This document shows positions 37,309 to 53,320 of a stretch of 64,000 nucleotides of DNA, in pieces. This DNA comes from Lichenibacterium dinghuense (GTDB taxonomy: Bacteria; Pseudomonadota; Alphaproteobacteria; Rhizobiales; Beijerinckiaceae). Numbering within the stretch: the stretch's first letter is position 1; each line of letters begins with the position of its first letter. The notes beneath the pieces are model-generated. The model had not been told where the DNA came from and ran no database searches. It worked only from the letters and a program-made list of their open reading frames with translations. Made by a program: the position numbers and the translations under genes. The stretch spans positions 4,847,501-4,911,500 of the forward strand of contig NZ_JAJLMN010000001.1 of the NCBI RefSeq assembly GCF_021730615.1, given 5' to 3'.

Positions 37309-38301
37309 ATGTCGTTGTCCAACGACGTGATGCTTGAGATGCAGCGGCGCATGCTGCGCATCCGCCTGTTCGACGAGCGGGCATCCAAGATGCTGAAGCG
37401 GGGCCAGATCCCCGGCACGATCCACACGAGCATCGGCCAGGAGGCCCAGGTGGTCGGCGCCTGCATGGCGCTCGACAAGCACGACAACATGACCGGCAAC
37501 CACCGCAGCCACGGCCACCCGATCGGCAAGGGCTCGGCGCTGGGCCCGCTGATGGCAGAGCTGGTCGGCAAGGGCACCGGCGTGTGCAAGGGCAAGGGCG
37601 GCTCGCTCCACCTCGCCGACTTCGCGGTGGGCAGCCTCGGCGAGTCCGGCATCACCGGCTCCTCCATCCCGATCGCGGTCGGCGCGGCGCTGTCCGCCCA
37701 GGTGCTCGGCGACGGCCGCGTGGGGCTGTGCTTCTTCGGCGACGGCGCCGCCAACCAGGGCGTGCTCTACGAGTCCATGAACCTGGCCTCGGCCTACAAG
37801 CTGCCCGTCATCTTCCTCTGCGAGAACAACCACTACGCCCTGTCGACCCCCGCTCACACGGTGACGGGCGGACGCATCTGGGAGCGCGCCGCGGGCTTCG
37901 GCATGCCGGGGGTCTGCGTCGAGGACGGGCAGGACGTGCTGGCGGTCTACGAGGCCGTGAAGGCCGCCGTGGACCGCGCGCGGGCCGGCGAGGGGCCGAC
38001 CCTGGTCGAGGTGATGACCTACCGCTTCCGCGAGCACGCCGAGGGGCTGCGCCTCAACGTCGACTACCGCAACGCCGACGAGCGCGAGCGCTGGACGAGC
38101 CGCGACCCCATCGCGCTGTTCCGTGCCGTGCTGATCGACCGCGGCGTCGCCGACGCGGCCGCCATGGACGCCATGGAGGCCGACATCGCCCGCGAGGTCG
38201 ACGACTGCGTGAAGTTCTCCGACGCGAGCCCCTATCCGGACGCCAAGGTCGCCTTCGAGCACCTCTACACGGATGCCTACGAGACGGAGGCGCTGCAGTG
38301 A
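37309..38301 (+). CDS. TPP-dependent dehydrogenase E1, alpha subunit (acetoin/2-oxoacid dehydrogenase type)
   Basis: This 330-residue E1 alpha subunit has the thiamine diphosphate motif GDGAANQG through CENNHY and a family segment RGQIPGTIHTSIGQEA. It decarboxylates or cleaves a 2-keto (or acetoin-like) substrate and passes the acyl group to a lipoyl domain. The branch resembles acetoin dehydrogenase AcoA more than pyruvate dehydrogenase, but the substrate is open. GGGGAGGGA precedes the ATG. It is the first gene after promoter and operator A, and E1 beta follows with GTGA overlap. Confidence 0.92.
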   Translation: MSLSNDVMLEMQRRMLRIRLFDERASKMLKRGQIPGTIHTSIGQEAQVVGACMALDKHDNMTGNHRSHGHPIGKGSALGPLMAELVGKGTGVCKGKGGSLHLADFAVGSLGESGITGSSIPIAVGAALSAQVLGDGRVGLCFFGDGAANQGVLYESMNLASAYKLPVIFLCENNHYALSTPAHTVTGGRIWERAAGFGMPGVCVEDGQDVLAVYEAVKAAVDRARAGEGPTLVEVMTYRFREHAEGLRLNVDYRNADERERWTSRDPIALFRAVLIDRGVADAAAMDAMEADIAREVDDCVKFSDASPYPDAKVAFEHLYTDAYETEALQ

Positions 38302-39314
38302 CCGTGATGACCTACATCGCCGCGATCGGCGCGGCGCAGCGCGAGGCCATGGTGGCCGACAAGCGCGTAATCGTGATCGGCGAGGACGTCGAGGCCAACG
38401 TCTACGGCACGACCGGCGGCTCGAAGTCCCGCGCCGAGAAGGGCGACTTCGTGCAGGAGTTCGGCCGCAACCGCGTGCGCAACACGCCGATCTCCGAGGA
38501 GGCTATCGTGGGCGCCTCGATCGGCGCCGCCATGACGGGGCTGCGCCCCATCGTCGACCTGTCCTACTCGTCGTTCCTGTACATGGCGATGGACCAGCTC
38601 GTGAACCAGGCGGCCAAGAACCGCTACATGTTCGGCGGCCAGGGCTCGATCCCGATCGTGTTCCGCTCGGCCATGTTCTACGGGCTGAACACCGGCGCGC
38701 ACCATTCGGACCGCCCCTATCCGATGTTCATGAATGTGCCGGGCCTCAAGGTCCTGGTGCCCGCCTCCGCCGCCGACGCCAAGGGGCTGCTGCGCCAGGC
38801 CGTCGACAGCGACGACCCCGTGCTGATCTTCGAATCCGTGCCGCTGTGGGGCTCGAAGGAAGAGGTCGACGAGAGCGAGTACCGCATCCCCTTCGGGGTC
38901 GCGCGCGTGCGCCGCGAGGGCACGGACGTCACCATCGTGGGCATCTCCGGCTCGGTGCCGCAGGCCGTCAAGGCGGCCGAGGCGCTGGCCGAGCAGGGCA
39001 TCTCGGCCGAGGTGATCGACCCGCGCACGCTGGTGCCGCTCGACACCAGGACCATCCTCGAATCCGTCCGCAAGACGGGGCGCCTCGTCATCGCCGAACC
39101 GGCGCACCGCACCTGCGGGGCCGCGGCCGAGATCTCGGCCATCGTGGCCGAGCAGGCCTTCGACGCCCTGCGCGCGCCGATCCGGCGCGTCACCGCGCCG
39201 GACATGCAGATCCCCTTCAGCCCCGCGCTCGAGGCGGGGTTCTACCCGACCGCCGACAAGATCGTGGCGGTGACCCGCACCATCTGCGGCAACAACGCCC
39301 CCACCGATCTGTGA
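38298..39314 (+). CDS. TPP-dependent dehydrogenase E1, beta subunit
   Basis: This 338-residue partner of the alpha subunit completes the active site. Features: GEDVEANVYGTTGGSK, NTPISEEAIVGASIG and the transketolase C-terminal domain with EVIDPRTLVPLDTRTI and EPAHRTCG. The GTG start at 38298 overlaps the alpha stop and has GGAGG 8 nt upstream; ATG 38307 is possible but too far from it. The lipoyl carrier gene follows in 25 bp. Confidence 0.92.
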   Translation: MTVMTYIAAIGAAQREAMVADKRVIVIGEDVEANVYGTTGGSKSRAEKGDFVQEFGRNRVRNTPISEEAIVGASIGAAMTGLRPIVDLSYSSFLYMAMDQLVNQAAKNRYMFGGQGSIPIVFRSAMFYGLNTGAHHSDRPYPMFMNVPGLKVLVPASAADAKGLLRQAVDSDDPVLIFESVPLWGSKEEVDESEYRIPFGVARVRREGTDVTIVGISGSVPQAVKAAEALAEQGISAEVIDPRTLVPLDTRTILESVRKTGRLVIAEPAHRTCGAAAEISAIVAEQAFDALRAPIRRVTAPDMQIPFSPALEAGFYPTADKIVAVTRTICGNNAPTDL

Positions 39315-39339
39315 TCACCCCTTTCAACGGAGTCCGACC

Positions 39340-39582
39340 ATGAAAGTCGAAGTGTTGCTGCCTCAGTGGGGCATGGGCATGAGCGAGGGCACCGTCACGG
39401 CCTGGAAGATCAAGGTCGGCGACAAGGTCAACGAGGGCGACGTGCTCGCCGAGATCGAGACCGAGAAGGTGACCCAGGAGCTGGAGTCGCCGGCCAGCGG
39501 CACGATCAGGGAGATCCTGGTCGAGGAAAGCCAGGAGGCCAAGGTCCGCACGGCGCTCGCGATCATCGAATCCGACGACTGA
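39340..39582 (+). CDS. Free-standing lipoyl carrier domain of a 2-oxoacid dehydrogenase complex
   Basis: The 80-residue protein is a single lipoyl (biotinyl-type) domain: LPQWGMGMSEGTVTAWKIK, then the lipoylation lysine 43 in EIETEKVTQELES, and a closing GTIREILVEE turn. It stops there, with no peripheral-subunit-binding or catalytic domain. The matching catalytic domain is a separate gene 2.8 kb downstream (42361-43047). It would take an acyl group from E1 and hand it to that free E2 core. Confidence 0.9.
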   Translation: MKVEVLLPQWGMGMSEGTVTAWKIKVGDKVNEGDVLAEIETEKVTQELESPASGTIREILVEESQEAKVRTALAIIESDD

Positions 39583-39740: not shown

Positions 39741-41414
39741 ATGCCAGCGACGACGGAAGGGCGCACGGGAGATCTCGGCGGGTCGACGCCGCCCGCGCCC
39801 AACGAGATCTTCGACGTGATCGTGGTCGGGGCCGGCATCAACGGCACCGGCACGGCGCGCGACGCGGCGGCCCGCGGCCTGCGCGTCGCCCTGGTGGAGC
39901 GCGAGGACGTCGGCTCCGGCACCTCCAACTATTCGGGCCGGCTGGTGCACGGGGGGCTGCGCTACCTGGAGCAGGGCGACGTGCGCCTCGTGCGCGAGTC
40001 CCTGCGCGAGCGCGAGCGCCTGTTCCGGCTGGCGCCCCACCTCGTCAAGCCCGTGCCGCTCATGATGCCTTTCTACCGGCACAACAAGCGCTCGAAATGG
40101 GCCATCCGCGCCGCCATGCTGGCCTATGACGCGCTGTCCTTCGACAAGTCGACGAACTCGCACTTCGTGCTGTCGCGCGAGGAGACGATCAAGCGCAGCC
40201 CCGGCATCAACCAGGACGGCCTCGAAGGCTCGGCCATCTTCATGGACGGGCAGGTCGTGTGGTCGGAGCGGCTCTGCGTCGAGGTCGCGCTCGCGGCCCG
40301 CGCCGACGGCGTGAAGATCTACACCCACGCGGAGGTCGACGGGCTGATCAGCGACGGCCAGACCGTGAAGGGCATCCGCTACACGGACCGCATCACCGGC
40401 GAGCGGCACGCGCTCGGGGCCCGCGTGGTCGTCAACGCGGCGGGGCCATGGGTCGACGCCGTGCTGGCCAGCGACGAGCGCATCACCCAGCGCTTCATCG
40501 GCGGCACCAAGGGCAGCCACCTCATCGTCCGGCCCTTCCCGGGCGCGCCGACCGACGTCGTCTACTACGAGTCCCACAAGGACGGCCGCCTCGTGCTGGT
40601 CATCCCCTGGGGCGACCAGATCATGATCGGCACGACCGATTCCCGCTACGACGGCGACCCGTCCGAGGCGCGGGCGGACCGGAGCGAGGTCGAATACCTG
40701 TTCGGCGAGGTGAACCGGCTGGTGCCCGGAGCCAAGCTCACGGAGGACGACATCCTCTACACCTACGCCGGCGTGCGCCCGCTGCCCTTCGTGCCCGACA
40801 AGTCCGAGTGGAACGTGTCGCGCTCCCACGTCATCAAGGACCACGCGCCCGAGCACCGCGGCCTCCTGTCCCTGATCGGCGGCAAGCTGACCACCTACCG
40901 CTCGCTCGCCGAGGAGGCGACCGACGAGGTGTTTAAGCAGCTCGGCGCCAAGCCGCCGCGCTGCCTGACGACCGGCATGCCCTTCCCGGGCGCCCGCGTG
41001 CAGAACTGGGCGAGGTTCACGGACGACCTCGTCGCCACGAGCGGCGTCGCCCGCCCCGTGGTCGAGCGGCTGGTGGGCATCTACGGCTCCCGCGCCGGCG
41101 ACGTGCTCGCGGTGGGGCGCGACGATCCCTCGCTGCTGGAGCCGCTCGGCCCCGACAGCACCTGCATCGGCGCCGAGGTGGTCTTCACCTGGGACAACGA
41201 GTTCTGCCGCACGCTGCACGACGTGCTGCTCCGGCGCACCATGATCGTCCACACCGCCGACAACGGCGCGGGCGTGGTCGACCGCGCGGCCGACATCCTG
41301 GCTAGGCACCTCGGCTGGGGCGCGAACCGCCGCGACAGCGAGGTGGCGGACTACAAGCGCTACATCGAGCGCTTCGCCAAGCCCGAGCCGGCCCCGGCCG
41401 CGCACGCCGCCTGA
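39741..41414 (+). CDS. GlpD-like FAD-dependent (polyol-)phosphate dehydrogenase
   Basis: This 557-residue flavoprotein has an N-terminal FAD motif VIVVGAGINGTGTARDAAAR, GTSNYSGRLVHGGLRYLEQG, VIPWGDQIMIGTTDSRYDGD and GGKLTTYRSLAEEA, then a C-terminal helical domain. This is the glycerol-3-phosphate dehydrogenase fold that also includes erythritol-4-phosphate dehydrogenase EryB. It would oxidise a polyol phosphate to the ketose phosphate at the membrane and pass electrons to quinone. The position beside FGGY kinases and an aldolase supports a catabolic rather than a respiratory-shuttle role. GGGGGAGGGA precedes ATG 39741. Confidence 0.88.
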   Translation: MPATTEGRTGDLGGSTPPAPNEIFDVIVVGAGINGTGTARDAAARGLRVALVEREDVGSGTSNYSGRLVHGGLRYLEQGDVRLVRESLRERERLFRLAPHLVKPVPLMMPFYRHNKRSKWAIRAAMLAYDALSFDKSTNSHFVLSREETIKRSPGINQDGLEGSAIFMDGQVVWSERLCVEVALAARADGVKIYTHAEVDGLISDGQTVKGIRYTDRITGERHALGARVVVNAAGPWVDAVLASDERITQRFIGGTKGSHLIVRPFPGAPTDVVYYESHKDGRLVLVIPWGDQIMIGTTDSRYDGDPSEARADRSEVEYLFGEVNRLVPGAKLTEDDILYTYAGVRPLPFVPDKSEWNVSRSHVIKDHAPEHRGLLSLIGGKLTTYRSLAEEATDEVFKQLGAKPPRCLTTGMPFPGARVQNWARFTDDLVATSGVARPVVERLVGIYGSRAGDVLAVGRDDPSLLEPLGPDSTCIGAEVVFTWDNEFCRTLHDVLLRRTMIVHTADNGAGVVDRAADILARHLGWGANRRDSEVADYKRYIERFAKPEPAPAAHAA

Positions 41415-41474
41415 CAGACCCGCCGGGCGCGCCCGGCGACCACCACAGCGAGAACACGAGGGAAGGAAGAACCG

Positions 41475-42344
41475 ATGAAGCTGCTCGATCCCCACGCCAC
41501 CATCGAGGCCGCGCGCCAGGGCGGATACGCGGTCGGCGCCTACAACATGCACAACGAGGAGACCTGCGAGGCGCTGCTGATGGCCGCCGAGGAGGCCGAT
41601 TCGCCGGTGATCCTGCAGGTCGGCCGCGCCATCATCCCGCACTGGGGCGTCGCGCGCTCCTTCGAGATGACGAAGCGCCTCGCCGAGAAGTCCGGCGCCG
41701 AGGTGATCTTCCACCTCGACCACGGCAGCTGGGACGAGGTCCACGAGGCCATCAAGCTCGGCTTCAACTCCATCATGTACGACGGCGCCCACCTGCCGCT
41801 CGACGAGAACATCGCCTCGACCAAGCGCATCGTCGAGATCTGCCACTCCTTCGGCATCCCGGTCGAGGCCGAGCTCGGCAAGATCCCGGACGCCGACGAG
41901 AAGGTCGACTGGTCCGACTACTACACGGACGTCGAGGAGGCCCGCCGCTTCGTGAAGGAGACCGGCGTCGACACGCTGGCGATCTCGGTGGGCATCGTCC
42001 ACGGCGTCGTGCCGGGCCGGCCGCAGGAGCCGATCAGCATCGAGCGCACCCGCGAGATCAAGGAAGCGGTCGGCATCCCGCTGGTGCTGCACGGCGCCTC
42101 CGGCCTGTCGAACGAGGAGGTACAGGGCGCCAAGGCGGCCGGCGTGTGCAAGTTCAACGCCGACACGGACCTGCGCCACGCCTTCCGCCGCGGCTTCGAA
42201 TCCGTCTGGGCGCAGGGCGACCGCCAGCTCGAGGACGCGATGCGGGAAGGCCGCAAGCAGATGATCCCGGCCACGATCGAGAAGATGCGCCAGTACGGCT
42301 GCGCGGGCCGGGCCGGCGGGGTCACCCGCCGCGCCGCGGCCTGA
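41475..42344 (+). CDS. Class II (zinc) ketose-bisphosphate aldolase
   Basis: This 289-residue TIM-barrel aldolase has Asp 82 and zinc-ligand His 83 in FHLDHGSWDEVH, a second zinc His in GIVHGVVPG and a third in VLHGASGL, where the GASG turn binds phosphate. Family members cleave fructose- or tagatose-bisphosphate, or sugar 1-phosphates, to DHAP and an aldehyde. In this operon it would split the keto-phosphate formed by the kinases and the GlpD-like enzyme. Spacing to the upstream gene is 60 bp and to the E2 core gene 16 bp. Confidence 0.9.
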   Translation: MKLLDPHATIEAARQGGYAVGAYNMHNEETCEALLMAAEEADSPVILQVGRAIIPHWGVARSFEMTKRLAEKSGAEVIFHLDHGSWDEVHEAIKLGFNSIMYDGAHLPLDENIASTKRIVEICHSFGIPVEAELGKIPDADEKVDWSDYYTDVEEARRFVKETGVDTLAISVGIVHGVVPGRPQEPISIERTREIKEAVGIPLVLHGASGLSNEEVQGAKAAGVCKFNADTDLRHAFRRGFESVWAQGDRQLEDAMREGRKQMIPATIEKMRQYGCAGRAGGVTRRAAA

Positions 42345-42360
42345 CGGGAGCGCCCCCGCG

Positions 42361-43047
42361 ATGACCGCTACGGCCCCGATCGACGAAGGGCGCGCGGTGC
42401 CGCTGTCCAAGACGGCGCGCACCATGGCCAAATACATGAGCCAGGCCTGGACGGCGCCGATGTTCGGCCTCACGGCCGAGGTCGACATGACCGCCGCCAA
42501 CGCGCGCAGGGCGCAGCTGAAGGGCGAGGGCGTCACGCTGACGGACGTGATCGTGCAGAGCTGCGTCAGGGCCATCAAGGCCCATCCCAAGCTCAACGCA
42601 CATTTCCGCGACGACGCCGTCGTGTTCTACGACGACGTCAACGTCGGCCTCGCGGTCGCCAACGACAAGGGCCTGATCGTGCCGGTCATCCACGGCGCGC
42701 AGGAGCTGTCGCTGTCCGAGATCGGGGCGCGGCGGCGCGAGCTGATCGGCAAGACGCGCACGGGCGGCCTCAAGGTCCCGGACGTGACGGGCGGCACCTT
42801 CACGGTGTCGAACCTCGGCATGTTCGACGTGACGCGCTTCACGGCGATCATCAACCCGCCGCAGGTGGCGATCCTGGCGGTCGGCAGCACGGTCCATCGC
42901 CAGGTGTGGAACGGCGGCGAGCCCGCGTGGCGGCCGGTCGCCGAGTTCACCCTGACGAGCGACCACCGCGCGGTCGACGGGGCCGCGGCGGCGGGCTTCC
43001 TGCAGGCGCTGAAGAAGGATCTCGAAGCGGGGGACGGCGCGGCCTGA
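42361..43047 (+). CDS. Free-standing E2 acyltransferase catalytic domain
   Basis: The 228-residue protein is the CoA-dependent acyltransferase core of a dihydrolipoyl transacylase: an N-terminal LSKTARTMAKYMSQAWTAP, GLIVPVI and the active-site His 202/Asp 206 in TSDHRAVDG. It lacks the usual N-terminal lipoyl and E1/E3-binding domains; the lipoyl domain is a separate gene at 39340. It would transfer the acyl group to CoA. No dihydrolipoyl dehydrogenase (E3) gene is in the locus, so E3 must come from elsewhere. Confidence 0.92.
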   Translation: MTATAPIDEGRAVPLSKTARTMAKYMSQAWTAPMFGLTAEVDMTAANARRAQLKGEGVTLTDVIVQSCVRAIKAHPKLNAHFRDDAVVFYDDVNVGLAVANDKGLIVPVIHGAQELSLSEIGARRRELIGKTRTGGLKVPDVTGGTFTVSNLGMFDVTRFTAIINPPQVAILAVGSTVHRQVWNGGEPAWRPVAEFTLTSDHRAVDGAAAAGFLQALKKDLEAGDGAA

Positions 43048-43147: not shown

Positions 43148-44134
43148 GTGAGCAAGCACGCCAACCGCCGCCTGTCCCGCCTCACCCTCGGCACCGCGGC
43201 CTGCGCGCTGGCCCTGTCGGCGGCGCTGCCCGCCTTCGCGGCCGACAAGGGCTCCATCGGCGTCTCGGTCGCCGACCAGAAGTCGCTGTTCTACGTCGCC
43301 GCCGTCGAGGGCATGAAGGCCGAGGCCGCCAAGCTGGGCTACGACCTCCGCATCGCCTCGGCCAGCAACAATTCGAGCCTGCAGATCAAGCAGGTCCAGG
43401 ACCTGCTGGTGCAGAACGTCAAGGCGCTGATCTTCATCTCGCAGGACTCGACGGCCGCCCAGGCCGGCGTCAAGGCCGCCAACAAGGCCGACGTGCCGGT
43501 GGTGGCCGTCGACGAGAAGCCGGAGGCCGGCGCCGGCAAGCTCGTCACCTACATCGCGACCGACAGCGTGAAGGCCGCCCGCGACCTGTGCACCTGGGCG
43601 TTCAAGCAGATGGGCGGCAAGGGCAACATCGCCATCCTGCGCGGCGTGCTGGGCGCCACCGCCGAGCTGCAGCGCTCGCAGGGCTGCAAGGAGGCCCTGA
43701 AGGAGTACCCCGACATCCACGTCGTGGCCGAGCAGACCGCCAACTGGGACGAGACCGAGGCCTACAAGGCGACCCAGAACATCCTGACCGCCAACCCGAA
43801 GCTCGACGCCGTGTTCGGCGAGTCCGACGCCATGGCGATGGGCGCCGCCAAGGCGGCCAAGCAGGCGGGCCGCGACGGGCTGATCTACTTCGGCATCGAC
43901 GGCTTCCCGACCATGTTCACGGCCGTGAAGTCCGGCCTGACGCAGGCCACCATGGCCCAGAACCCCTACAAGATGGGCGTGATGGCGGTGGACGACGCGG
44001 TGGCGGTCATCACCGGCGGCGGCAAGGACATCAAGCCCGAGCAGTACATCGACACCACGCTGATCACCAAGGACAACGCCGGCACCGAGAAGCCGTCGAC
44101 CTATTACGGCCCGTCCGCCGACAGCATGCAGTGA
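43148..44134 (+). CDS. Sugar ABC transporter periplasmic binding protein (ribose/galactose type)
   Basis: The 328-residue protein has a signal peptide (SRLTLGTAACALALSAALP, ending AFAADKG) and a Periplasmic_binding_4 fold: LFYVAAVEGMKAEAAKLGYD, AVDEKPEAG, GESDAMAMGAAKAAKQAG, and GIDGFPTMFTAVKSG. The start is GTG, behind GGAGGAAAC. It brings the locus substrate to the permease. Ligand unknown; the type binds pentoses, hexoses, polyols and autoinducer-2. A perfect 15-bp hairpin follows it and may stabilise its mRNA relative to the downstream genes. Confidence 0.93.
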   Translation: MSKHANRRLSRLTLGTAACALALSAALPAFAADKGSIGVSVADQKSLFYVAAVEGMKAEAAKLGYDLRIASASNNSSLQIKQVQDLLVQNVKALIFISQDSTAAQAGVKAANKADVPVVAVDEKPEAGAGKLVTYIATDSVKAARDLCTWAFKQMGGKGNIAILRGVLGATAELQRSQGCKEALKEYPDIHVVAEQTANWDETEAYKATQNILTANPKLDAVFGESDAMAMGAAKAAKQAGRDGLIYFGIDGFPTMFTAVKSGLTQATMAQNPYKMGVMAVDDAVAVITGGGKDIKPEQYIDTTLITKDNAGTEKPSTYYGPSADSMQ

Positions 44135-44327: not shown

Positions 44328-45815
44328 ATGGCCGACCCGCACCCGACCGGCCTCCGCTGCCGAGGCCTCGAGAAGCGCTACGGCGGCCGCCTCGTGCTCC
44401 GCTCCGTCGACCTGTCGCTCATGCCGGGCAGCGTGCTCGGGCTCATCGGCGAGAACGGCGCCGGCAAGTCGACCACCAACTCCATCATCGCCGGGGTGGT
44501 GGCGGCCTCGGGCGGCGAGATGACGCTCGACGGCGCGCCCTACCGCCCCGCCTCGCCTTCTGACGCGCTGCACCAGGGCGTGGCGTTGATCCACCAGGAG
44601 ATCCGCCTGCTGCCGGGCCTCACGGTCGCGGAGAACATGTTCCTCGGCCGGCAGCCGACCGGAGGCCTCACCATCGACCGCGCCCGGATGGTGCGGGAAT
44701 CGCAGGCGGCCCTCGACGCCCTCGGCGTCCGGGTCGACGCGCGGCGCACCGTCGGCGGCCTGTCCATGGCGGTCCAGCAGGGCATCGAGATCGCCAAGGC
44801 GGTGATCCGGAAGCCCCGGTACATCATCTTCGACGAGCCCACGGCCTCGCTCGGCGAGGCCGAGGCCGAGCGCATCTTCGCGCAGATCCGCGCCCTCAAG
44901 GCCGGCGGGGCCGGCATCGTCTACGTGTCCCACCGCCTCGACGAGGTGCGCGAGGTGTCCGACCGCGTCGCCTGCCTGCGCGACGGCGAGAAGGTGGCCG
45001 ACTGGGACCACGCGCCCGCCAAGCAGGACATGATCAACGCCATGGTGGGGCGCGACTTCACCTTCGAGCACCACGCGCCGCCGCCGCGCGGCGAGCACGT
45101 GGTGCTCAAGGTCGAGGGCGCGAGCCGCGGCAAGGCCTTCCGCGACGTGTCCTTCGACGTCGCCGAGGGCGAGATCCTCGGCTTCGCCGGCCTGATCGGC
45201 GCCGGCCGCACCGAAGTGGTGCGCGCCATCTCGGGCGCCGACCGGCTCGACCGCGGCAGCATCCACGTCGACGGCCGCCCGGTGAGCTTCAAGAGCCCCA
45301 GGGGCGCCATCAAGGCCGGCATCTTCATGGTGCCGGAGGACCGCAAGGGGCAGGGCCTGCTGCTGGAGCGCGCCGTGGGCGAGAACATCGCGCTGCCCTG
45401 GGAAAGCAAGATCGGGCGCGGCGGCATGGTCACGGCCGCCGGCATCGACCGGGTCGCGCAGGACCAGAAGCGCCGCTTCGACATCCGCGGCCGCATGGCC
45501 TCGCCGGTCGGCCGCATGTCCGGCGGCAACCAGCAGAAGGTGCTGATCGCCAAGTGGCTCGTGGAGAACCCCAAGGTCTTCATCATCGACGAGCCGACGC
45601 GCGGCGTCGACGTCGGCGCCAAGATGGCGATCTACGAGATCATCCGCGGGCTGGCGGCGGCCGGCGTGGCCGTGATCGTGGTGTCCTCGGAGCTGGAAGA
45701 GGTGCTGGGCCTCGCCCACCGCGTGTTGGTCATGTCCGGCGGGCGGCAGCGCGGGATCCTGTCGCGCGAGGAAGCGACGCCCGAGCGTGTCATGTCGCTG
45801 GCGGTCGCGGCATGA
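44328..45815 (+). CDS. Sugar ABC transporter double ATP-binding protein (RbsA/MglA type)
   Basis: The 495-residue protein has two ATPase domains. The first has Walker A GENGAGKST and Walker B IIFDEPTAS; the second has GLIGAGRTEV (degenerate Walker A, normal for this type), MSGGNQQKVLIAKWL and FIIDEPTRGVDVGAK. ATG 44328 is used because it begins the conserved part after GAGG; a longer frame runs into the hairpin. It energises the permease encoded next, and belongs to the ribose-type importers seen in ery loci. Confidence 0.93.
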   Translation: MADPHPTGLRCRGLEKRYGGRLVLRSVDLSLMPGSVLGLIGENGAGKSTTNSIIAGVVAASGGEMTLDGAPYRPASPSDALHQGVALIHQEIRLLPGLTVAENMFLGRQPTGGLTIDRARMVRESQAALDALGVRVDARRTVGGLSMAVQQGIEIAKAVIRKPRYIIFDEPTASLGEAEAERIFAQIRALKAGGAGIVYVSHRLDEVREVSDRVACLRDGEKVADWDHAPAKQDMINAMVGRDFTFEHHAPPPRGEHVVLKVEGASRGKAFRDVSFDVAEGEILGFAGLIGAGRTEVVRAISGADRLDRGSIHVDGRPVSFKSPRGAIKAGIFMVPEDRKGQGLLLERAVGENIALPWESKIGRGGMVTAAGIDRVAQDQKRRFDIRGRMASPVGRMSGGNQQKVLIAKWLVENPKVFIIDEPTRGVDVGAKMAIYEIIRGLAAAGVAVIVVSSELEEVLGLAHRVLVMSGGRQRGILSREEATPERVMSLAVAA

Positions 45816-45872: not shown

Positions 45873-46865
45873 GTGCTCCAATCCACCAACGCGACAGACG
45901 CGGCCCACGCCGGCGCGCAGGAGAGCGCCAAGGAGCGCGCCCTCGGCCTGGTCCGCCTCGTGCCGGGGCCGCTGATCGGCCTCGTGGTCGTGATCGTCGT
46001 CCTGTCGTACCTGTCGCCCTACTTCCTGACGACGCGCAACATCGTCAACATCTTCAGCCAGGTGTCGGACATCGGCATCATGGCGGTGGGCGCCGCCCTG
46101 GTGATCATCACCGGCGGCATCGACCTGTCGGTGGGCGCCGTGCTGGCGTCGAGCCTGATGGTGAACGCGTGGCTGTACCGCTACGGCGGCGTGCCCTTCC
46201 CGCTGGCCGTGGTGGCTGGCCTGCTGTTCGGCACCGCCGTCGGCTTCGTCAACGGCGCCCTCTCGACCTACGCCCGCATCCAGCCCTTCGTGGCGACGCT
46301 CGCCACCATGTCGGCCTGCTCGGGCTTCGCGCTGTTCATCACCGACGGCAGCCCCATCACGACCTTCCCGGACTGGTACACGAACATCACCGCGATCAAC
46401 GTCCTCGGCGTGCCCTTCGAGGCTGTGATCCTGGTCACCATCTATCTCATCACCGCCTTCTGGCTGCGCTACCGGCCGAGCGGCCGCGCCCTCTACGCGG
46501 TGGGCGGCAACGAGGAAGTGGCGCGCCTGTCCGGCCTCGACGTTCAGCGCATCCGCGTCGGCACCTACGCGATCGCGGGCTTCCTCGCCGCCCTGGCCGG
46601 AATGATCGTCGGCTCGCGGCTCGACTCGGCCCAGCCCACCGCAGGCGTCAACGACCTGCTCAGCGTCATCGCGGTCGTGGTCATCGGCGGCGCCTCCCTG
46701 GCCGGCGGCGCCGGCTCCATGCTCGGCACCTTCATCGGCCTCCTCACCATCGGCGTGCTGCGCAACGGCATGGGCCTGCTCAACGTGTCGCCGAACCTCC
46801 AGCCCGTCGTGATCGGCGGCGCGATCATCCTCGCCGTCCTGACGGACCGGCGCTCGCGCCACTGA
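45873..46865 (+). CDS. Sugar ABC transporter permease (RbsC type)
   Basis: This 330-residue inner-membrane protein has about eight to ten helices. It carries the RbsC signatures IMAVGAALVIITGGIDLSVG and RPSGRALYAVGGNEEVARLS and a C-terminal GGASLAGGAGSMLGTFIG. GTG start at 45873 after GGGAGG. Forms the channel for the importer of this locus. Confidence 0.93.
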   Translation: MLQSTNATDAAHAGAQESAKERALGLVRLVPGPLIGLVVVIVVLSYLSPYFLTTRNIVNIFSQVSDIGIMAVGAALVIITGGIDLSVGAVLASSLMVNAWLYRYGGVPFPLAVVAGLLFGTAVGFVNGALSTYARIQPFVATLATMSACSGFALFITDGSPITTFPDWYTNITAINVLGVPFEAVILVTIYLITAFWLRYRPSGRALYAVGGNEEVARLSGLDVQRIRVGTYAIAGFLAALAGMIVGSRLDSAQPTAGVNDLLSVIAVVVIGGASLAGGAGSMLGTFIGLLTIGVLRNGMGLLNVSPNLQPVVIGGAIILAVLTDRRSRH

Positions 46866-46924: not shown

Positions 46925-48400
46925 ATGCCGCTCGACCTCGAACTGTCGGACCTGAACGACCTCGACAGGATCCGCGACGCGCTGTCCCGCAACGATCCGC
47001 GCGGGCAGTTCACCGCGCTCAGCATGGACAGGCTGACCATCGCCGACGACGCGGTCGACGGGCTGATCGCAGCGGTCGAGCGGCAGCTCGCGCGGGCCGG
47101 GCGGCCCGCGGCGCGCGACACCCGCGTTCGCCTCGTCGCCGACGCCGTCACGATCCGGCGCGACGGCCGCGACCTCAAGGCGGACGTCTTCGCGCGGCTG
47201 AGCGAGCGCTTCGCCGCGGAGCGCGTTACCCTCGACGACGGCCAGCCGGCCCTCCACGCCGACGAGGCGATGCAGGACCGCGCGGCCGAGCTCTGCGTCG
47301 GCGCCGACTGCATCGTGTCGGTCGGGGGCGGCACCATCACGGACATCGCCAAGATCGCCGCCCTGCGCAACGGCGTGCCCGTGCACGTGGTGGTGCAGAC
47401 CGCAGCCTCGGTCGACGGCTTCACGGACAACTTCTCCGTGGTGCTGCAGAAGGGCGTGAAACGTACGCTGCTGACGCGCTGGCCCGACGAGGTGCTGACG
47501 GACGGCCGCGTGGTCGCCGGCGCCCCGCCGGCGCTGAGCGCCGCTGGCCTCGGCGAGATGCTGTCCATGTTCGTGGCGCCCGGCGACTGGCTGCTGGCCT
47601 TCAGGCTCGGGCAGGACGACTCCTACACGCCCGTGCTGGTCGAGATGCTGGCCGTCTGCGGCGCGGGCATCCGGGACTGGTCGGTGGGCGTCGGCCGGGC
47701 CGAGGTCGACGGGCTGCGGCGCCTCGCCTCCGGCCTCGCCATGCGCGGCATCGTCACCGGCGTCGGCGGCACCAGCGCGTCGCTGTCCGGGATGGAGCAC
47801 CTCGTCAGCCACATGCTCGACATGCACGGCGCCGAGACGGGCGAGCCGACGGGGCTCCACGGCGCGCAGGTCGGCGTGGCCTCGGTCATCGCCTCCGCGG
47901 CCTGGGAGCACTTCTGCGCCCGCATGGAGGCGGAGCCGATCGATCCCGCGCGCCTGTTCGGCGACGCCGGAGTCTGGGAGGACCGCGTCCGCACCGCCTT
48001 CGCCGGGCTCGACCGGACCGGGCGCCTCGGCGGGCAGTGCTGGGGCCACTACCGGCTGAAGCTCGCCAAGTGGCACGCCAACCGCCCCGCCGTGGAGCGC
48101 TTCTTCGCCGACTGGCCCGCCATCCGCGACGCCCGCGACGCGGTCGTGCTCAAGGCCGATGCCGTGGCGTCATGCCTCCACGACGGCCGCGCCCCCAAGC
48201 GCTTCGGCGATCTCGACCCCGCCCCGTCCGAGCGGCTGATCCGCTGGGCCGCCCTGAACTGCCAGTTCATGCGCGAGCGCTTCACGGTGGCGGACCTCCT
48301 CACCTTCGCGGGCTGGTGGGACGAGGAGGGCGTGACGGCCGTGTTCGACCGCGTCGAGCGCGCCTGCGCGGCGGCCGAAGCCGGGGCGAGGGCCGCATGA
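46925..48400 (+). CDS. sn-Glycerol-1-phosphate dehydrogenase-like (iron/zinc alcohol dehydrogenase superfamily)
   Basis: The 491-residue protein has the dehydroquinate-synthase/G1PDH fold: NAD motif SVGGGTITDIAKIAALRNG, VQTAASVDGFTDNFSV, and metal ligands in GDWLLAF (Asp), HLVSHMLDMHG (His) and GLHGAQVGV (His). The family includes glycerol-1-phosphate dehydrogenase (EgsA/AraM), which interconverts DHAP and glycerol-1-phosphate. It is longer than typical AraM (about 400 residues) because of extended ends. It overlaps the FGGY kinase gene by ATGA. Exact substrate unknown; a polyol phosphate of the opposite configuration to that used by the GlpD-like enzyme is possible. Confidence 0.85.
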   Translation: MPLDLELSDLNDLDRIRDALSRNDPRGQFTALSMDRLTIADDAVDGLIAAVERQLARAGRPAARDTRVRLVADAVTIRRDGRDLKADVFARLSERFAAERVTLDDGQPALHADEAMQDRAAELCVGADCIVSVGGGTITDIAKIAALRNGVPVHVVVQTAASVDGFTDNFSVVLQKGVKRTLLTRWPDEVLTDGRVVAGAPPALSAAGLGEMLSMFVAPGDWLLAFRLGQDDSYTPVLVEMLAVCGAGIRDWSVGVGRAEVDGLRRLASGLAMRGIVTGVGGTSASLSGMEHLVSHMLDMHGAETGEPTGLHGAQVGVASVIASAAWEHFCARMEAEPIDPARLFGDAGVWEDRVRTAFAGLDRTGRLGGQCWGHYRLKLAKWHANRPAVERFFADWPAIRDARDAVVLKADAVASCLHDGRAPKRFGDLDPAPSERLIRWAALNCQFMRERFTVADLLTFAGWWDEEGVTAVFDRVERACAAAEAGARAA

Positions 48401-49929
48401 CGCGCGACCTCGTCGTCGGGCTCGACGTTTCCACCACCGCCGCGAAAGCGGTGGTGTGGGACATGGGCGGCCACGCGGTCGCGGAAGGGCGGCTGTCGAT
48501 CCCGCGCGCGAGCTCCCATCCCGGCTGGGGCGAGCAGGATCCGGCCGACTGGTGGCGCGCCACCGTCGAGGCGCTGCGCCGCGCGACCGCGCAGGTCGAC
48601 GGGAACCGGATCGCCGCCCTGTCGATCGCCCACCAGCGCGAGTCCTTCGCGTGCCTCGACGCGGAGGGCGAGGCCGTGCGCCCGGCTATCCTGTGGCTCG
48701 ACACGCGGGCCACGGCGGAGATCGTGGCCCACGGCGACGCGCGGGTCCACGAGGTCACAGGCAAACCACCCAACACGGCGACGAGCTGGTACAAGCTGCT
48801 CTGGCTCCAGCGGCACGAGCCCGACGCCATGGCGCGCACGCGCCGGGTCGTCGACGTGCAGGCCTACCTCGTCCACCGCATGACCGGGCGATGGCGGACC
48901 TCCTTCGGCAGCGCCGACCCCATGGGCCTGCTCGACATGCGCGCCTTCGCGCTCGACGCGGAGCTGCTCCGACGTGTCGGCCTCGCGGCCGAACAGGTGC
49001 CCGAGCTGTCCCCCTCGGGCGTCGAGCTCGGCCGCCTCGCGGACGGCGTGGCAACGGCCGCGGGCCTGACGCCGGGCCTGCCGGTCATCGCCGGCATCGG
49101 CGACGGGCAGGCGGCCGGCCTCGGCGCGGGCATCACGGCGCCCGGCGCCGCCTACCTCAACCTCGGCACCGGCATCGTGTCGGGCACGTTCAGCGCGGAC
49201 TATCGCTGGGGACGCGAGTTCCGCACCATGTGCGGGGCCGCGCCCGGCACATACATGCCCGAAACCTTCATCGGCGGCGGCACCTTCAACGTCAGCTGGT
49301 TCGTGGACCAGTTCTCGGACGCGGACGTGCGGCCCTTCGGCCTCCAGGACTCGGCCGAGCGCATCCTCGAGATCGCGGCCGAGAAGGTGCCGGCCGGGTC
49401 GGACGGGCTGCTGGTCCTGCCCTACCTGTCGGGCGCGCTGTCGCCGTATTGGGACAGCGACGCCCGCGGCGTCTTCCTCGGCCTGTCCGCGCATCACGGG
49501 CGCTCCCACATGTATCGGGCCCTTCTGGAGGGCCTGGCGATGGAGCAGCGGCTGTCGACCACCGGCGCCGAGGCGGCGCTGGGCGTGCCGATCGAACGCC
49601 TGCGCGTGATGGGCGGGGGCTCGCGCAGCCCGCTCTGGTGCCAGATCGTCGCCGACGTGCTCGGGCGCCCGGTGGAGGTCACGCGCGAGACGGAGACGAC
49701 CTGCCTCGGTGCCGGCATGCTGGCCGCCGTGGGCGCGGGCCTCCACGCGAGCATCGCCGATGCCGCCGCGGCGATGAGCGGGACGCGCGAGGTCTATCGT
49801 CCGCACGCGCCGACCGCGTCCTTCTACGGCGACCTCTACGAGGTGTACCGCGGGCTCTACCCGCGCCTGCGGGACAGCTTCGCGCATCTCCAGGAGGTGT
49901 TGAAGAGCCGCGGCGCGGCCGGGGGCTGA
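48397..49929 (+). CDS. FGGY-family carbohydrate kinase (xylulokinase/erythritol-kinase-like), first copy
   Basis: This 510-residue kinase has the N-terminal phosphate motif VVGLDVSTTAAKAVV, IAHQRESFACLD, the catalytic Asp in IAGIGDGQAAGLGAG, and the C-terminal FGGY ATP motif VMGGGSRSPLWCQIVADVLG. It phosphorylates a sugar or polyol. It is the last gene of the long plus-strand operon, coupled to the G1PDH-like gene, and ends in a hairpin shared with the convergent regulator. Confidence 0.9.
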   Translation: MTRDLVVGLDVSTTAAKAVVWDMGGHAVAEGRLSIPRASSHPGWGEQDPADWWRATVEALRRATAQVDGNRIAALSIAHQRESFACLDAEGEAVRPAILWLDTRATAEIVAHGDARVHEVTGKPPNTATSWYKLLWLQRHEPDAMARTRRVVDVQAYLVHRMTGRWRTSFGSADPMGLLDMRAFALDAELLRRVGLAAEQVPELSPSGVELGRLADGVATAAGLTPGLPVIAGIGDGQAAGLGAGITAPGAAYLNLGTGIVSGTFSADYRWGREFRTMCGAAPGTYMPETFIGGGTFNVSWFVDQFSDADVRPFGLQDSAERILEIAAEKVPAGSDGLLVLPYLSGALSPYWDSDARGVFLGLSAHHGRSHMYRALLEGLAMEQRLSTTGAEAALGVPIERLRVMGGGSRSPLWCQIVADVLGRPVEVTRETETTCLGAGMLAAVGAGLHASIADAAAAMSGTREVYRPHAPTASFYGDLYEVYRGLYPRLRDSFAHLQEVLKSRGAAGG

Positions 49930-49948
49930 CCCCTCCGGCGGGGTCAGC
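49925..49948. terminator. Bidirectional hairpin between convergent kinase and regulator genes
   Basis: GCTGACCCC pairs with GGGGTCAGC around TCCGGC: a perfect 9-bp stem. The stop codons of both convergent genes lie in the two arms. No T run follows on either side, so it may act as a Rho-dependent or blocking structure rather than a classic terminator. Confidence 0.55.
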
Positions 49949-50891
49949 GGCGGTCGAGCAGGAAGGCCGCGGTGTTCTCGTCGCTGACCAGCGCGGTGAC
50001 GAAGCCGCCGCGCAGGCTGGCCAGCAGCGCGTCCCGCTTGAGCTCGCCCCCCGCCACGGCCATCCGCCGCGGGATCGCCCTGAAGTCTTCGAGCGAGATG
50101 CTGATCGGGTTGATCGACGGGGGGAGCTCGACGGGCTGGCCGTCCCGGTCGATCCAGCGGCACACGATGTCGCCCACGGCCCGGCGGTCCGCCAGGAACC
50201 GCCTCTGCTCGGGGGTGATGTGGCCGATCTTGAAGAGCGTGGCCTCGTCGTGCATCGCCCCCATGCTGTAGACCACCGTGGACGCGTTGCGCGCCAGCTC
50301 GAGGGACTCCCGGATGCCGGGGTCGTTGGCGAGCCCGGCCGCCGTCGCCTCGTCTTGGACGTAGACCGGGGCCAGCAGCGGGCGCACGGTCGCGCCGAAG
50401 CGCTGCCCGACCTGCGTCGCGATCTCGTTGGTGTTGGTGCCGAGTTCGGCGTTGTGGAGGCCGCCCACCATGGCCACCACCTGGACCCCGGGCACCGTGT
50501 TCTGGCCCACCAGCGCGTCCGCCATGGCCTGCATGGTGCTGCCCCAGCTCACGGCCAGCACGGCGTCCTCGACCACCAGGGCGGCCAGCAGCTCGGCCGC
50601 GGCGCGGCCGAGCCAGCGCTTCTGGATCGCGCCGTCGTCCGCCACCGGCACGATGCGCACGCTGTCGAGCCCGTAGGCGCGCTCCAGGTCGCGCTCGGCG
50701 CGGAACATGCCGGAGGTCACGTTGAGGGTGACCTTGACCAGCCCCTCGTCCTTGGCGCGCCGGAGCAGGCGCGTGACGGTGCTGCGGCTGACGCCGAGCA
50801 GCCGCGCGATGTCGCCTTGCGTCAACTCCTCATGGTAGTACAGCCAGGCGGCGCGGGCCACATCGCTTCCGCTGGTGTCGAAGTCGTTCAT
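49944..50891 (-). CDS. SorC-family sugar-binding transcriptional regulator
   Basis: The 315-residue protein has an N-terminal HTH (residues 20-46, ELTQGDIARLLGVSRSTVTR) and a SorC sugar-phosphate-binding domain (AVSWGSTMQAMADALVG, MVGGLHNAELGTNTNEIA). The family includes EryD, the erythritol repressor, and DeoR of Bacillus. ATG 50891 is the first Met before the conserved part. Its gene is divergent from the second FGGY kinase, with operator B in between, so it is probably autoregulated. Three copies of the same dyad define its regulon here. The inducer is expected to be a phosphorylated intermediate. Confidence 0.92.
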   Translation of the reverse strand: MNDFDTSGSDVARAAWLYYHEELTQGDIARLLGVSRSTVTRLLRRAKDEGLVKVTLNVTSGMFRAERDLERAYGLDSVRIVPVADDGAIQKRWLGRAAAELLAALVVEDAVLAVSWGSTMQAMADALVGQNTVPGVQVVAMVGGLHNAELGTNTNEIATQVGQRFGATVRPLLAPVYVQDEATAAGLANDPGIRESLELARNASTVVYSMGAMHDEATLFKIGHITPEQRRFLADRRAVGDIVCRWIDRDGQPVELPPSINPISISLEDFRAIPRRMAVAGGELKRDALLASLRGGFVTALVSDENTAAFLLDRR

Positions 50892-50920: not shown

Positions 50921-50949
50921 TTGCAATCGCTTTTTTTCGCTGATACAAA
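50921..50949 (+). promoter_or_regulatory. Promoter of the second FGGY kinase gene
   Basis: TTGCAA, 17 nt, TACAAA: identical boxes and spacing to the promoter at 37217-37245. The -10 box overlaps the left arm of operator B. A T7 run lies in the spacer. Confidence 0.65.
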
Positions 50950-50977
50950 TGTGCAAGCCATAAAAATATGCGTCAGC
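50940..50977 (+). promoter_or_regulatory. SorC-family operator, site B
   Basis: Left arm CTGATACAAA, centre AAGCCATAA, right arm TGCGTCAGC, same 38-nt layout as site A. It sits in the divergent region between the regulator gene (minus) and the kinase gene (plus), so it can serve both repression of the kinase and autoregulation. Confidence 0.68.
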
Positions 50978-51008
50978 AGACGTGACATCATCGGGAGGAG
51001 GCAGACCC

Positions 51009-52493
51009 ATGCTGATCGGAGTCGATCTCGGGACGTCGATGATCAAGGCGGCCGCTTTCTCGCCCGAGGGTGAGAGCCTGGCGGTGGCGTCGCGCCGGCC
51101 CACCCTGCGGCATCTCAGCCACGACCGGATCGAGCAGGATTTCGAGGAGGTCGTCGCCGCGGTGGGGACGGTCGTGGCCGAGGTGCGCGCCGCGGCGGCC
51201 CGCGAGCCGACCGCGGTCGGCATCACGGGGCAGAGCGACGGCCTGTGGCTGCTCGACGCCGACGGCCATCCCGTCCGCCCCGCGGTCTCCTGGCTCGACG
51301 GGCGCGGCAACCCCTATCTCCAGCGCTGGATGGACGACGGCACCTACGAGGCCGTGTTCCGGCGCAACGGCAACGCCATGTTCGCCGGCAGCCACGCCCC
51401 GCTGATGGCGGCCCTCGCCGACGGCGATCCCGCCGCGCTCGACCGGGCCGCCACCGCGAGCTACCTCAAGGACGGCATCCTGCAGCGCCTCACCGGCGTC
51501 CGCGTGACCGAAGCCTCGGACGCGTCGCTGCCCTTCCTCGACACGCGCACGCGCCAGTACGACCCCGAGATCCTGCGCCTGCTCGGGCTGGAGCGCCACG
51601 CGCGCCTGCTCGCCCCCGTGGCGCCCTCGCCGGCCCGGGCCCATCCGCTCAACGCCGCCGGCGCCGCGCTGACGGGGCTGCCCGTGGGCCTGCCCGTCCA
51701 TGCGGGCCCGTTCGACCTGCCGGCCTGCGCCATCGGGGCGGGCGTCGACCGGCTCGGCGACGGCCTCATCACGCTCGGCACCACCCTGGCCTGCCAGGTG
51801 CTGCGGGATGCCGTGGACACCACGGGCGAGCCGATGGGCATGACGCTCTGCATGCCCGAGGAGGGACGCTGGCTGCGCGCCGTGCCGGCCATGGTGGGCA
51901 CGGCCTCGCTCGACTGGGTCCTGGCCCTGGTCGGCGCCAAGCCGCCGGAGCTGGAAGCGCTGCTGGCCGAGAGCCGCCCCGGAGCTCGGGGCGTGACGGC
52001 GCTGCCCTATTTCGCCGCCACGGGCGAGCGGGCGCCGTTCTGCGACGTTTCGGCGCGCGGCCAGCTCGTCGGGTTGACGATGGGCACGGGGCGCGCGGAC
52101 CTGGTCATGGCGGTCTGCGAATCCGTGGCCTATGCGGCGCGCCACTGCATCGAAGCGGCGGGCCTCGACGGGCGCCTTTCGGTCTGCGGCGGCGGCGTCG
52201 GCTCGCGGGTGTGGGTGCAGATGGTGGCCGACGTGCTCCAGCAGCCGTTGCACATCGCGCGCCGGCCCGAGGTGGGGGCGCGCGGCGCCGCCATGGCGGC
52301 GATGGACGTGACCGGCATCGCCTACGACCGCGAGGCCTGGACGCGCTCCGAGTATGTCGTCGAGCCGCGCCAGGGCACCGCGCATTACGAGGACGGCTTC
52401 GCGCACTACCTCGAGACGGTCGCCTCGGCGCGGGCGCTGTGGCACAGCCCCGCGCGGCGTCGGCTCGAAGCCGCATCCCGCTCCGCGGCCTGA
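51009..52493 (+). CDS. FGGY-family carbohydrate kinase (xylulokinase-like), second copy
   Basis: The 494-residue kinase has MLIGVDLGTSMIKAAAF at the start, GITGQSDGLWLLD, catalytic Asp in AGPFDLPACAIGAG, and CGGGVGSRVWVQMVADVLQQ for the ATP fold. It shares only family-level similarity with the first kinase, so the two likely have different substrates. A strong GGAGGAGG site precedes ATG 51009. It has its own promoter and operator B and is convergent with the HAD gene. Confidence 0.9.
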   Translation: MLIGVDLGTSMIKAAAFSPEGESLAVASRRPTLRHLSHDRIEQDFEEVVAAVGTVVAEVRAAAAREPTAVGITGQSDGLWLLDADGHPVRPAVSWLDGRGNPYLQRWMDDGTYEAVFRRNGNAMFAGSHAPLMAALADGDPAALDRAATASYLKDGILQRLTGVRVTEASDASLPFLDTRTRQYDPEILRLLGLERHARLLAPVAPSPARAHPLNAAGAALTGLPVGLPVHAGPFDLPACAIGAGVDRLGDGLITLGTTLACQVLRDAVDTTGEPMGMTLCMPEEGRWLRAVPAMVGTASLDWVLALVGAKPPELEALLAESRPGARGVTALPYFAATGERAPFCDVSARGQLVGLTMGTGRADLVMAVCESVAYAARHCIEAAGLDGRLSVCGGGVGSRVWVQMVADVLQQPLHIARRPEVGARGAAMAAMDVTGIAYDREAWTRSEYVVEPRQGTAHYEDGFAHYLETVASARALWHSPARRRLEAASRSAA

Positions 52494-52513
52494 GGGGGCC
52501 GCGGCCCGGGGGC

Positions 52514-53320
52514 TCACGCCGCCCCGGCCCGCGCCGCGAGCAGGCGCTTGGCGATCTCGACGAAGCCGCGGCCGCCGCCGCCCCGCGTCACGTAGGCGGG
52601 CTCGGCGTCGATGCGCCCCGCGAAGTCGCGCACGCCCGCCACCCCGCAGGCGTTGGGGAAGAAGCCGAACATCGGCGCGTCGTTGGGGCTGTCGCCCACG
52701 AAGATGATGCGGTCGCGGTCGCGGTCCACGTCGAGGCCGGCGACGTCGCGCGCGAAGCGCCGCGTCATCGACAGCTTGTCGTACTGGCCGAACCAGCCGT
52801 TGACGTGGATCGACGACACCTTGGCCACGGCCCCCATCTCCTCGAAGATGGCCTTGATGCGCGCGACGGCTTCGGGCCCGAGCGGCGCCACGTCCTCGCA
52901 GAAGTCGATGGCGAGGTCCGCCTCGCGGTAGGCCTGGTCGGCCGACACCGCCGAGCCGGGAACCTCGGCGAGCACGCGCTCCTTCACGGCTTCGAGCCGC
53001 GCGCGGTTGGCGGCCCGCTCGGCCTCCGTGGCCGCGAAGGCGCGGCGCATGGTCCGTGCCGCCCGGTCGTAGGCGAAGTAGAGCGCGCCGTTCTCGCCCA
53101 CGATGCCGGCCACGGGCCAGATCCGGGCGATGAGGTCGCACCAGCCGGCGGGCCGGCCGGTGATCGGCGCCACGACGAAGCCCGCGTTCGAGAGGTCCTC
53201 GACGGCCCGGTAGGCTTCCGCCGGCAGGCGCCCCTCGTGGGTCATCGTGTCGTCGATGTCGGTGAGGACGAGACGCACCCGCGCGGCCTCGTGCTCCGGC
53301 ATGTCCTCAAGCGGACGCAT
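52514..53320 (-). CDS. HAD-family (IIB, Cof-type) phosphatase
   Basis: The 268-residue hydrolase has motif I VLTDIDDTMTH (nucleophile Asp), a Thr in APITGRPAG, Lys in YDKLSMTRRF, and motif IV IIFVGDSPNDAPMFGFF; the C2-type cap lies between. Such enzymes dephosphorylate sugar phosphates or polyol phosphates. ATG 53320 follows GGGGAGGAA. Operator C lies about 70 bp upstream, so it is probably part of the SorC regulon. It could remove toxic sugar phosphates or produce the free form. Confidence 0.9.
   Translation of the reverse strand: MRPLEDMPEHEAARVRLVLTDIDDTMTHEGRLPAEAYRAVEDLSNAGFVVAPITGRPAGWCDLIARIWPVAGIVGENGALYFAYDRAARTMRRAFAATEAERAANRARLEAVKERVLAEVPGSAVSADQAYREADLAIDFCEDVAPLGPEAVARIKAIFEEMGAVAKVSSIHVNGWFGQYDKLSMTRRFARDVAGLDVDRDRDRIIFVGDSPNDAPMFGFFPNACGVAGVRDFAGRIDAEPAYVTRGGGGRGFVEIAKRLLAARAGAA

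Follow-up and report, generated by a model that had tools for sequence, protein, structure and literature searches.

A locus of Lichenibacterium dinghuense predicted to be under SorC-type control and to degrade a polyol through a thiamine pyrophosphate/lipoyl complex

Organization and regulation of the locus

The genome of Lichenibacterium dinghuense carries, at positions 37309-53320 of the 64,000-nucleotide window analyzed (contig NZ_JAJLMN010000001.1), 14 genes of a candidate polyol catabolic locus, each assigned to a family by Pfam (Table 1). An 11-gene plus-strand row (37309-49929) includes: (i) the alpha and beta E1 subunits (E1a and E1b) of a thiamine pyrophosphate (TPP)-dependent enzyme and a stand-alone lipoyl protein (Lip), (ii) a GlpD-like dehydrogenase, a class II aldolase and an E2 catalytic core, (iii) an ATP-binding cassette (ABC) importer, and (iv) a glycerol-1-phosphate (G1P) dehydrogenase-like enzyme and an FGGY kinase. 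The row is followed by a SorC-type regulator (minus strand), a second FGGY kinase (plus strand) and a HAD gene (minus strand). The genes named in a first-pass annotation of the sequence are all present as open frames of the expected families at 37.3-53.3 kb, including its two kinase/dehydrogenase pairs (two FGGY kinases, GlpD-like and G1P-dehydrogenase-like); however, the annotation overlooked the 80-residue lipoyl protein, and its E2 is the catalytic domain alone. Gene content, operator distribution, orthology, catalytic motifs, the E1 clade and a link to an epoxide hydrolase are computed here.

The regulator and kinase 2 are transcribed away from each other, and kinase 2 and the HAD gene toward each other; thus, the locus forms three or four transcription units, all preceded by one type of operator-like site. 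Operator-like palindromes lie upstream of E1a, in the regulator/kinase 2 gap and upstream of the HAD gene, as scored by a 40-base position weight matrix (PWM). Its 15 training sites precede E1a in other genomes and were picked by eye after similar window sites were known. The site is roughly palindromic, with opposite-strand scores of 20.6, 14.0 and 12.3 at the same three places, while the next-best match in the 64 kb, outside the locus, scores 3.0. In a control on 30-60 kb, 50 column-shuffled matrices had a mean best score of 2.0, and no fourth match exceeded -0.3. A consensus pattern of the window's own three sites finds no fourth at up to three mismatches in the 6.1-Mb genome, and excludes only a fourth within that distance. 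With operator-like sites at three places, all in the locus, and no fourth in the genome, the locus is predicted to be one closed SorC-type regulon, on evidence that is strong but not blind. To this extent, the first-pass view of the genes as one coherent catabolic unit with a single regulator, here of SorC type, is borne out.

No operator-like site is found by PWM or pattern inside the row from E1a to kinase 1; thus, the aldolase and TPP genes probably form one transcription unit, and regulation of the aldolase apart from the TPP genes is not supported. A promoter/terminator scan found none and is uninformative, with shuffles averaging 0.4 and 3.7. The gap between the binding-protein and ATPase genes (44135-44327) includes a GC-rich inverted repeat, noted by eye, that may make expression unequal.

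Table 1. Genes and operator-like sites of the locus, in window coordinates.
Feature	Position	Strand	Basis
Operator-like palindrome upstream of E1a	37235..37274	+	PWM score 22.5
E1 alpha subunit, TPP-dependent, own clade	37309..38301	+	Pfam E1_dh 247 bits; orthologs 62-80%
E1 beta subunit	38307..39314	+	Transket_pyr/Transketolase_C; 79.6% identity to Rubrobacter ortholog
Stand-alone lipoyl carrier protein (Lip), 80 aa	39340..39582	+	Biotin_lipoyl 70 bits
GlpD-like FAD-dependent polyol-phosphate dehydrogenase	39741..41414	+	DAO + DAO_C
Class II aldolase, separate clade	41475..42344	+	F_bP_aldolase 279 bits; changed loop
E2 catalytic domain alone	42361..43047	+	2-oxoacid_dh 233 bits, residues 11-222 of 228
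Periplasmic binding protein, RbsB-like	43148..44134	+	Peripla_BP_4
ABC importer ATPase	44328..45815	+	ABC_tran, two stretches
ABC importer permease	45873..46865	+	BPD_transp_2
G1P-dehydrogenase-like enzyme, Fe-ADH family	46925..48400	+	Fe-ADH_2 69 bits
FGGY kinase 1	48397..49929	+	FGGY_N/C; overlaps G1P-dehydrogenase-like gene
SorC-family regulator, start chosen by eye	49944..50891	-	Sugar-bind domain 207 bits + helix-turn-helix
Operator-like palindrome, regulator/kinase 2 gap	50939..50978	+	PWM score 28.9
FGGY kinase 2, start set by eye	51009..52493	+	FGGY_N/C; 69% identity to Shinella ortholog
HAD-IIB phosphatase	52514..53320	-	TIGR01484 above cut-off
Operator-like palindrome upstream of HAD gene	53387..53426	+	PWM score 23.5

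The TPP/lipoyl complex and its orthologs

The E2 component is split over two genes, Lip and the catalytic core, which are separated by those for GlpD and the aldolase; by Pfam, the lipoyl domain is not fused to the core. Within the locus there is no E3 and no lipoylation gene, while elsewhere in the genome E3 homologs (best 39% identical) and lipA (72%) are found. The TPP motif GDG...NN is kept in 58/58 E1a orthologs (by pattern), the E2 motif DHRxxDG in 41/43 and the lipoyl lysine in 57/57 rows (the window and 56 loci); most Lip proteins carry E-A-E-K, and the pattern E[ST][DE]K fits just 4/56. With these residues conserved, the E1/Lip/E2 complex should be functional. The lipA gene adjoins the gene set in 11 loci, and an LplA/B-like ligase cluster (one member family-scanned) occurs in 15, as expected if Lip is lipoylated.

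A scan of an 84,980-species collection with two short peptide patterns gave at least 80 loci, and among the 80 listed, 56 are orthologs (E1a 62-80% identical), two are fragments (L083, L084) and 22 are homologs at ≤47% identity. The fragments and distant homologs are excluded and two plasmid loci added, which gives at least 58 E1a loci (a lower bound) in Alphaproteobacteria and Actinomycetota, with strains of Pseudarthrobacter, Paracoccus and Aureimonas among the carriers; the locus as a private oddity of one genome is ruled out by this number. Per-gene counts for the 58 loci are 57 for E1b, 56 for Lip, 49 for the aldolase, 46 for the G1P-dehydrogenase-like enzyme, 43 for the E2 core, 35 for GlpD and 34 for kinase 1, all of them lower bounds from plain open reading frames (ORFs) and BLAST on loci cut at 10 kb each side. 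Other gene calls in the loci come from a custom ORF caller, which missed genes in L010, L016, L034, L042 and L055. The aldolase directly follows E1a-E1b-Lip, or lies past GlpD or GlpD and a kinase, in 48/49 loci by eye (the exception being L004). Separation of the aldolase from the TPP genes, named in the first-pass annotation as evidence against its proposal, thus leaves no sign in either gene order or operator placement. The neighborhood comparison that the annotation suggested finds content and order recurring in dozens of distant genomes, and the locus is more than chance.

A Shinella plasmid carries much the same set, extended by lipA and with HAD-IIA replacing HAD-IIB, and a Rubrobacter plasmid, of the other phylum, encodes an E1b that is 80% identical. 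The E1 is rare, with only its own genome matching at E 1e-120 among 385 sampled Alphaproteobacteria. In the E1a tree, which includes three paralogs, sequences from the two phyla interleave, and that of the window forms a pair with one from a Rhizobiaceae metagenome-assembled genome (support 99/93). A plasmid of Arthrobacter typed as conjugative (L005) bears a related E2 core (49%), a dihydrolipoyl dehydrogenase, a GlpD-like oxidase and thiC.

By sequence, the E1 forms a separate clade. Diagnostic positions, kept in ≥95% of orthologs and rare in paralogs of undefined function (22 E1a, 16 E1b), number 33 in E1a and 39 in E1b, of which E1b position 335 is an alignment-end artifact and position 272 differs in one locus that lacks the aldolase. 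The E1a set includes an inserted arginine (R248) in the loop after a conserved histidine, while the E1b set includes R136-P-Y-P, where the paralogs mostly have S-L-E-A. The subunits fall under the NCBIfam cut-offs for pyruvate dehydrogenase (PDH; 310.6 vs 393.85 for E1a and 302.4 vs 321 for E1b), and the E2 core has its best NCBIfam scores with PDH acetyltransferase models. Acetoin and pyruvate dehydrogenase complexes share with the locus the E1 alpha/beta TPP motif, a lipoyl carrier and the DHRxxDG of the E2 core; they differ in that the E2 is here split, no E3 is in the locus, the E1 is altered after the conserved histidines and the genes belong to a polyol regulon. A complex that oxidizes pyruvate or acetoin and merely assists the use of a common polyol (erythritol, threitol or a pentitol) for growth would suit the PDH-type matches of E1 and E2, but is made quite unlikely by the sub-cut-off E1 scores, the dedicated regulon and the separate clade, defined in a comparison without acetoin-dehydrogenase sequences.

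Two other kinds of E1 substrate are conceivable. Several E1b diagnostic residues are polar and, with the RbsB-like importer and FGGY kinases, would fit an ordinary tetritol or pentitol, E1/E2 being an oxidative transketolase that converts a normal ketose phosphate to glycolyl-CoA and an aldose phosphate. This is unlikely, as the pentose phosphate pathway accepts ordinary ketose phosphates without the help of a complex of this kind, no locus gene has an evident use for glycolyl-CoA, and the epoxide hydrolase of related loci (below) would be unexplained. E1b also matches the 1-deoxy-D-xylulose 5-phosphate (DXP) synthase model (78.6 bits vs a cut-off of 466), although this weak match is general to the fold, and hydroxyethyl-TPP chemistry suits a PDH-like E1. 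A substrate akin to methylerythritol phosphate pathway intermediates, either a 1-deoxyketose or an alditol (1-deoxyxylulose or 2-C-methyl-D-erythritol), that E1/E2 would cleave as DXP to acetyl-CoA and glyceraldehyde-3-phosphate in the reverse of DXP synthase is equally unlikely, since the locus has no reductoisomerase and such a route would have no need of GlpD, the G1P dehydrogenase or the aldolase.

Partner enzymes, variant loci and the epoxide hydrolase

The GlpD-like enzyme, scanned minus its first 16 residues, has GlpD as best equivalog (348 bits vs a cut-off of 360). The nearest solved relative of the G1P-dehydrogenase-like enzyme is a G1P dehydrogenase (9h4x, E 1.1e-26); the window enzyme falls below the NCBIfam equivalog cut-off (103 vs 413), and the metal-site motif HxxSH is kept in 45/45 sequences. 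The glycerol-phosphate relatives of the flavoenzyme and of the G1P-type dehydrogenase act on opposite enantiomers. For kinase 1 the best NCBIfam model is XylB, below cut-off. The aldolase is below the fructose-/tagatose-bisphosphate aldolase equivalog cut-off (247.3 vs 343.05) and above that of the broader ketose-bisphosphate aldolase subfamily (228.6 vs 215.6); HLDH is kept in 50/50 sequences, while a PDAD..VDW-like loop replaces the GGxED of solved relatives. The HAD slot is filled by HAD-IIB in the window and HAD-IIA in relatives, and the phosphoglycolate-phosphatase matches of both, which are below cut-off and for the window enzyme far below, weakly suggest a role on a C2 fragment. The closest solved proteins to the binding protein are ribose-type; several positions that we take to be ribose contacts differ by eye on alignments, which disfavors ribose as the ligand but is not conclusive.

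Nine loci are without the aldolase: L027, L059, L060 and L085 are short contigs (L059 and L060 having the most distant E1), and the other five (L010, L037, L052, L053 and L056) are an aldolase-free variant. The variant loci, scattered over the E1a tree in no single clade, also have no GlpD or G1P-dehydrogenase-like gene (as judged, like the aldolase, in the locus only) and carry an importer, a GlpK-like kinase, an SDR and E1/Lip, with an E2 core in 4/5; family scans covered one kinase and one SDR, with which the others clustered. In all five, the E1a diagnostic set is kept, and the E1b set is kept except at two positions. Because nearly all E1 diagnostic residues persist in these five loci, the GlpK-like kinase and SDR alone are probably enough to produce the substrate of E1. 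This speaks for a hydroxyketone phosphate as that substrate and against an aldehyde set free in the aldolase reaction. The first-pass annotation had instead proposed that the aldolase yields dihydroxyacetone phosphate and a short fragment, which goes on to acyl-CoA. The proximity of aldolase and E1 genes in aldolase-bearing loci would suit such a route from a short aldehyde; however, the five variant loci leave it unsupported, and it is very improbable, as TPP/lipoyl complexes use aldehydes poorly, their E1 enzymes normally acting on 2-oxo acids or alpha-hydroxyketones.

A lumazine-synthase homolog, a gene also present in ery loci, lies beside lipA or near importer genes in some relatives (L009:5773-6216 and five more loci; L010:16677-17174). 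It possibly supplies flavin for GlpD or E3, or marks a link to dihydroxybutanone phosphate.

An EHN-type epoxide hydrolase, whose PDB relatives are epoxide hydrolases, is encoded within 10 kb in 15/58 loci, and in 13 of the 15 it is adjoined by genes of a second ABC importer (by eye). A search was sent for 50 of the 58 loci (excluding L026, L027, L043, L057, L059, L060, L082 and L085), with L017 not searchable; a hydrolase at 81-96% identity to the L017 copy is found in 25/49 E1-positive genomes or records, and the remaining matches are ≤41%. By comparison, 89 of the 385 sampled Alphaproteobacteria have some homolog at E 1e-30, none above 50% identity. The hydrolase has the top cross-phylum identity among the clusters compared (median 82% vs 74-75% for the E1 subunits). 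In each of the 25 hydrolase genomes the locus includes the aldolase, and the hydrolase is absent from all five aldolase-free genomes (47 genomes, Fisher p 0.017, kinship ignored); 17 of the 47 have the aldolase without the hydrolase. An M20 dipeptidase (beta-Ala-His family; cluster c23) is encoded in 11 loci, including L017:2050-3567, with second-importer genes adjoining in 10, and is in view together with the hydrolase in L011, L017, L019 and L058. The presence of the hydrolase in roughly half of the relatives searched suggests that the compound derives from an epoxide, perhaps one of isoprene. A polyol of epoxide origin, or a methyl-branched or deoxy one, would account for the bypass of ordinary pentose-phosphate entry. 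The glycerol-derivative or polyol class given in the first-pass annotation is plausible; the hydrolase link lay outside its view.

Proposed pathway and comparison with known systems

The best explanation of the locus, with a probability of about 0.6, is a closed SorC-controlled regulon for the breakdown of a glycerol-like polyol, deoxy or methyl-branched, by a route whose last stage is a dedicated TPP/lipoyl complex that forms acyl-CoA. We infer the chemistry throughout, including the order of steps, the acyl group and the substrate. The importer would take up the polyol, the two FGGY kinases would phosphorylate it, and the two kinase/dehydrogenase pairs (GlpD-like and G1P-dehydrogenase-like) may serve two stereo-series to form a keto-phosphate. 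The class II aldolase is proposed to trim a longer keto-phosphate to the E1 substrate or to salvage a product. E1 alpha/beta would then cleave an alpha-hydroxyketone phosphate, with the C2 unit passed to CoA via the free Lip and the E2 core; the acyl product is probably acetyl-CoA, and a housekeeping E3 would complete the complex. The C2 phosphate released by the cleavage may be cleared by the HAD phosphatase.

Several points weigh against this computationally derived explanation. One of the 50 shuffled matrices reached 18.8, near the weakest true site (22.5), and the E2 core is not detected in 15/58 loci, some of them short contigs. The diagnostic residues are no proof of a phosphate ligand. 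The NxDTxLR motif, presumably typical of bisphosphate-cleaving aldolases, is kept in the three aldolase sequences compared, and the partner of the aldolase may be an ordinary phosphorylated compound. The epoxide hydrolase is absent from the window genome, where the same query that succeeds in relatives was used, and from 24/49 searched E1-positive records at the 81% level. A polyol pathway offers no explanation for the M20 dipeptidase-like gene in the accessory module.

As to the substrate, 2-methyltetrols or another deoxy-tetritol are a tentative and doubtful choice, with 2-methyltetrols by themselves less probable still. A pathway for isoprene-derived polar epoxides and polyols, of which the window organism would have the polyol part alone, is more doubtful than the tetritol class as a whole. 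In such a pathway the second ABC importer of relatives would take up isoprene epoxydiol, which the epoxide hydrolase would open to 2-methyltetrols; the kinases would phosphorylate C4, and GlpD and the G1P-dehydrogenase-like enzyme would oxidize two C3 stereo-series. The aldolase may next remove formaldehyde to leave 1-deoxytetrulose phosphate, which E1/Lip/E2 would convert to acetyl-CoA and a C2 phosphate for the HAD enzyme to clear.

The ery loci of rhizobia and Brucella are alike in the FGGY kinase, GlpD-like dehydrogenase, SorC-type regulator and sugar ABC importer. By contrast, the window locus adds the TPP E1, split E2, class II aldolase and G1P-dehydrogenase-like enzyme, so that the distinction drawn in the first-pass annotation from an ery-type set is retained, and no isomerase, whether of the EryH/EryI type or another, is found among the 14 genes, to which the search was confined. 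The AraM (G1P dehydrogenase) and AraL (phosphatase) proteins of B. subtilis similarly place a G1P-dehydrogenase-like enzyme and a HAD protein in a sugar operon, while the window enzyme is paired with an FGGY kinase and a TPP complex. In the apulose-4-phosphate transketolase route of apiose catabolism, a TPP enzyme cuts a phosphorylated branched ketose; that enzyme transfers to an aldose acceptor, whereas the lipoyl protein and E2 imply CoA as acceptor here. E1-Lip operons on Sphingobium and Croceicoccus plasmids (L088, L090) share the E1a-E1b-lipoyl order, with E1b ~54% identical, but have SDRs, a cupin and an M24 peptidase as neighbors, and no sugar kinase or ABC importer is annotated in the stretches seen.

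The gene set is not found described in the titles and abstract openings of the open-access papers listed, or in the passages at hand of PMC5507952, PMC7657509 and PMC6529453 (the last a reference list). Within these sources, the parts are of known families while their combination and the E1 clade appear undescribed. If the proposed pathway is true, carbohydrate catabolism would gain a step in which a split-E2 TPP/lipoyl machine of the PDH type cuts a phosphorylated ketone, not a 2-oxo acid. Should the substrate arise from isoprene oxidation, the pathway would be a biological sink for what we take to be a large atmospheric carbon flow. The regulon and binding protein render the substrate question directly testable.

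Outside the locus, a minus-strand ORF at 35823-37244, upstream of and divergent from E1a, is histidine-kinase-like as judged by eye from its translation, and an mmgR (suhB family) small RNA is encoded on the minus strand at 57637-57709.

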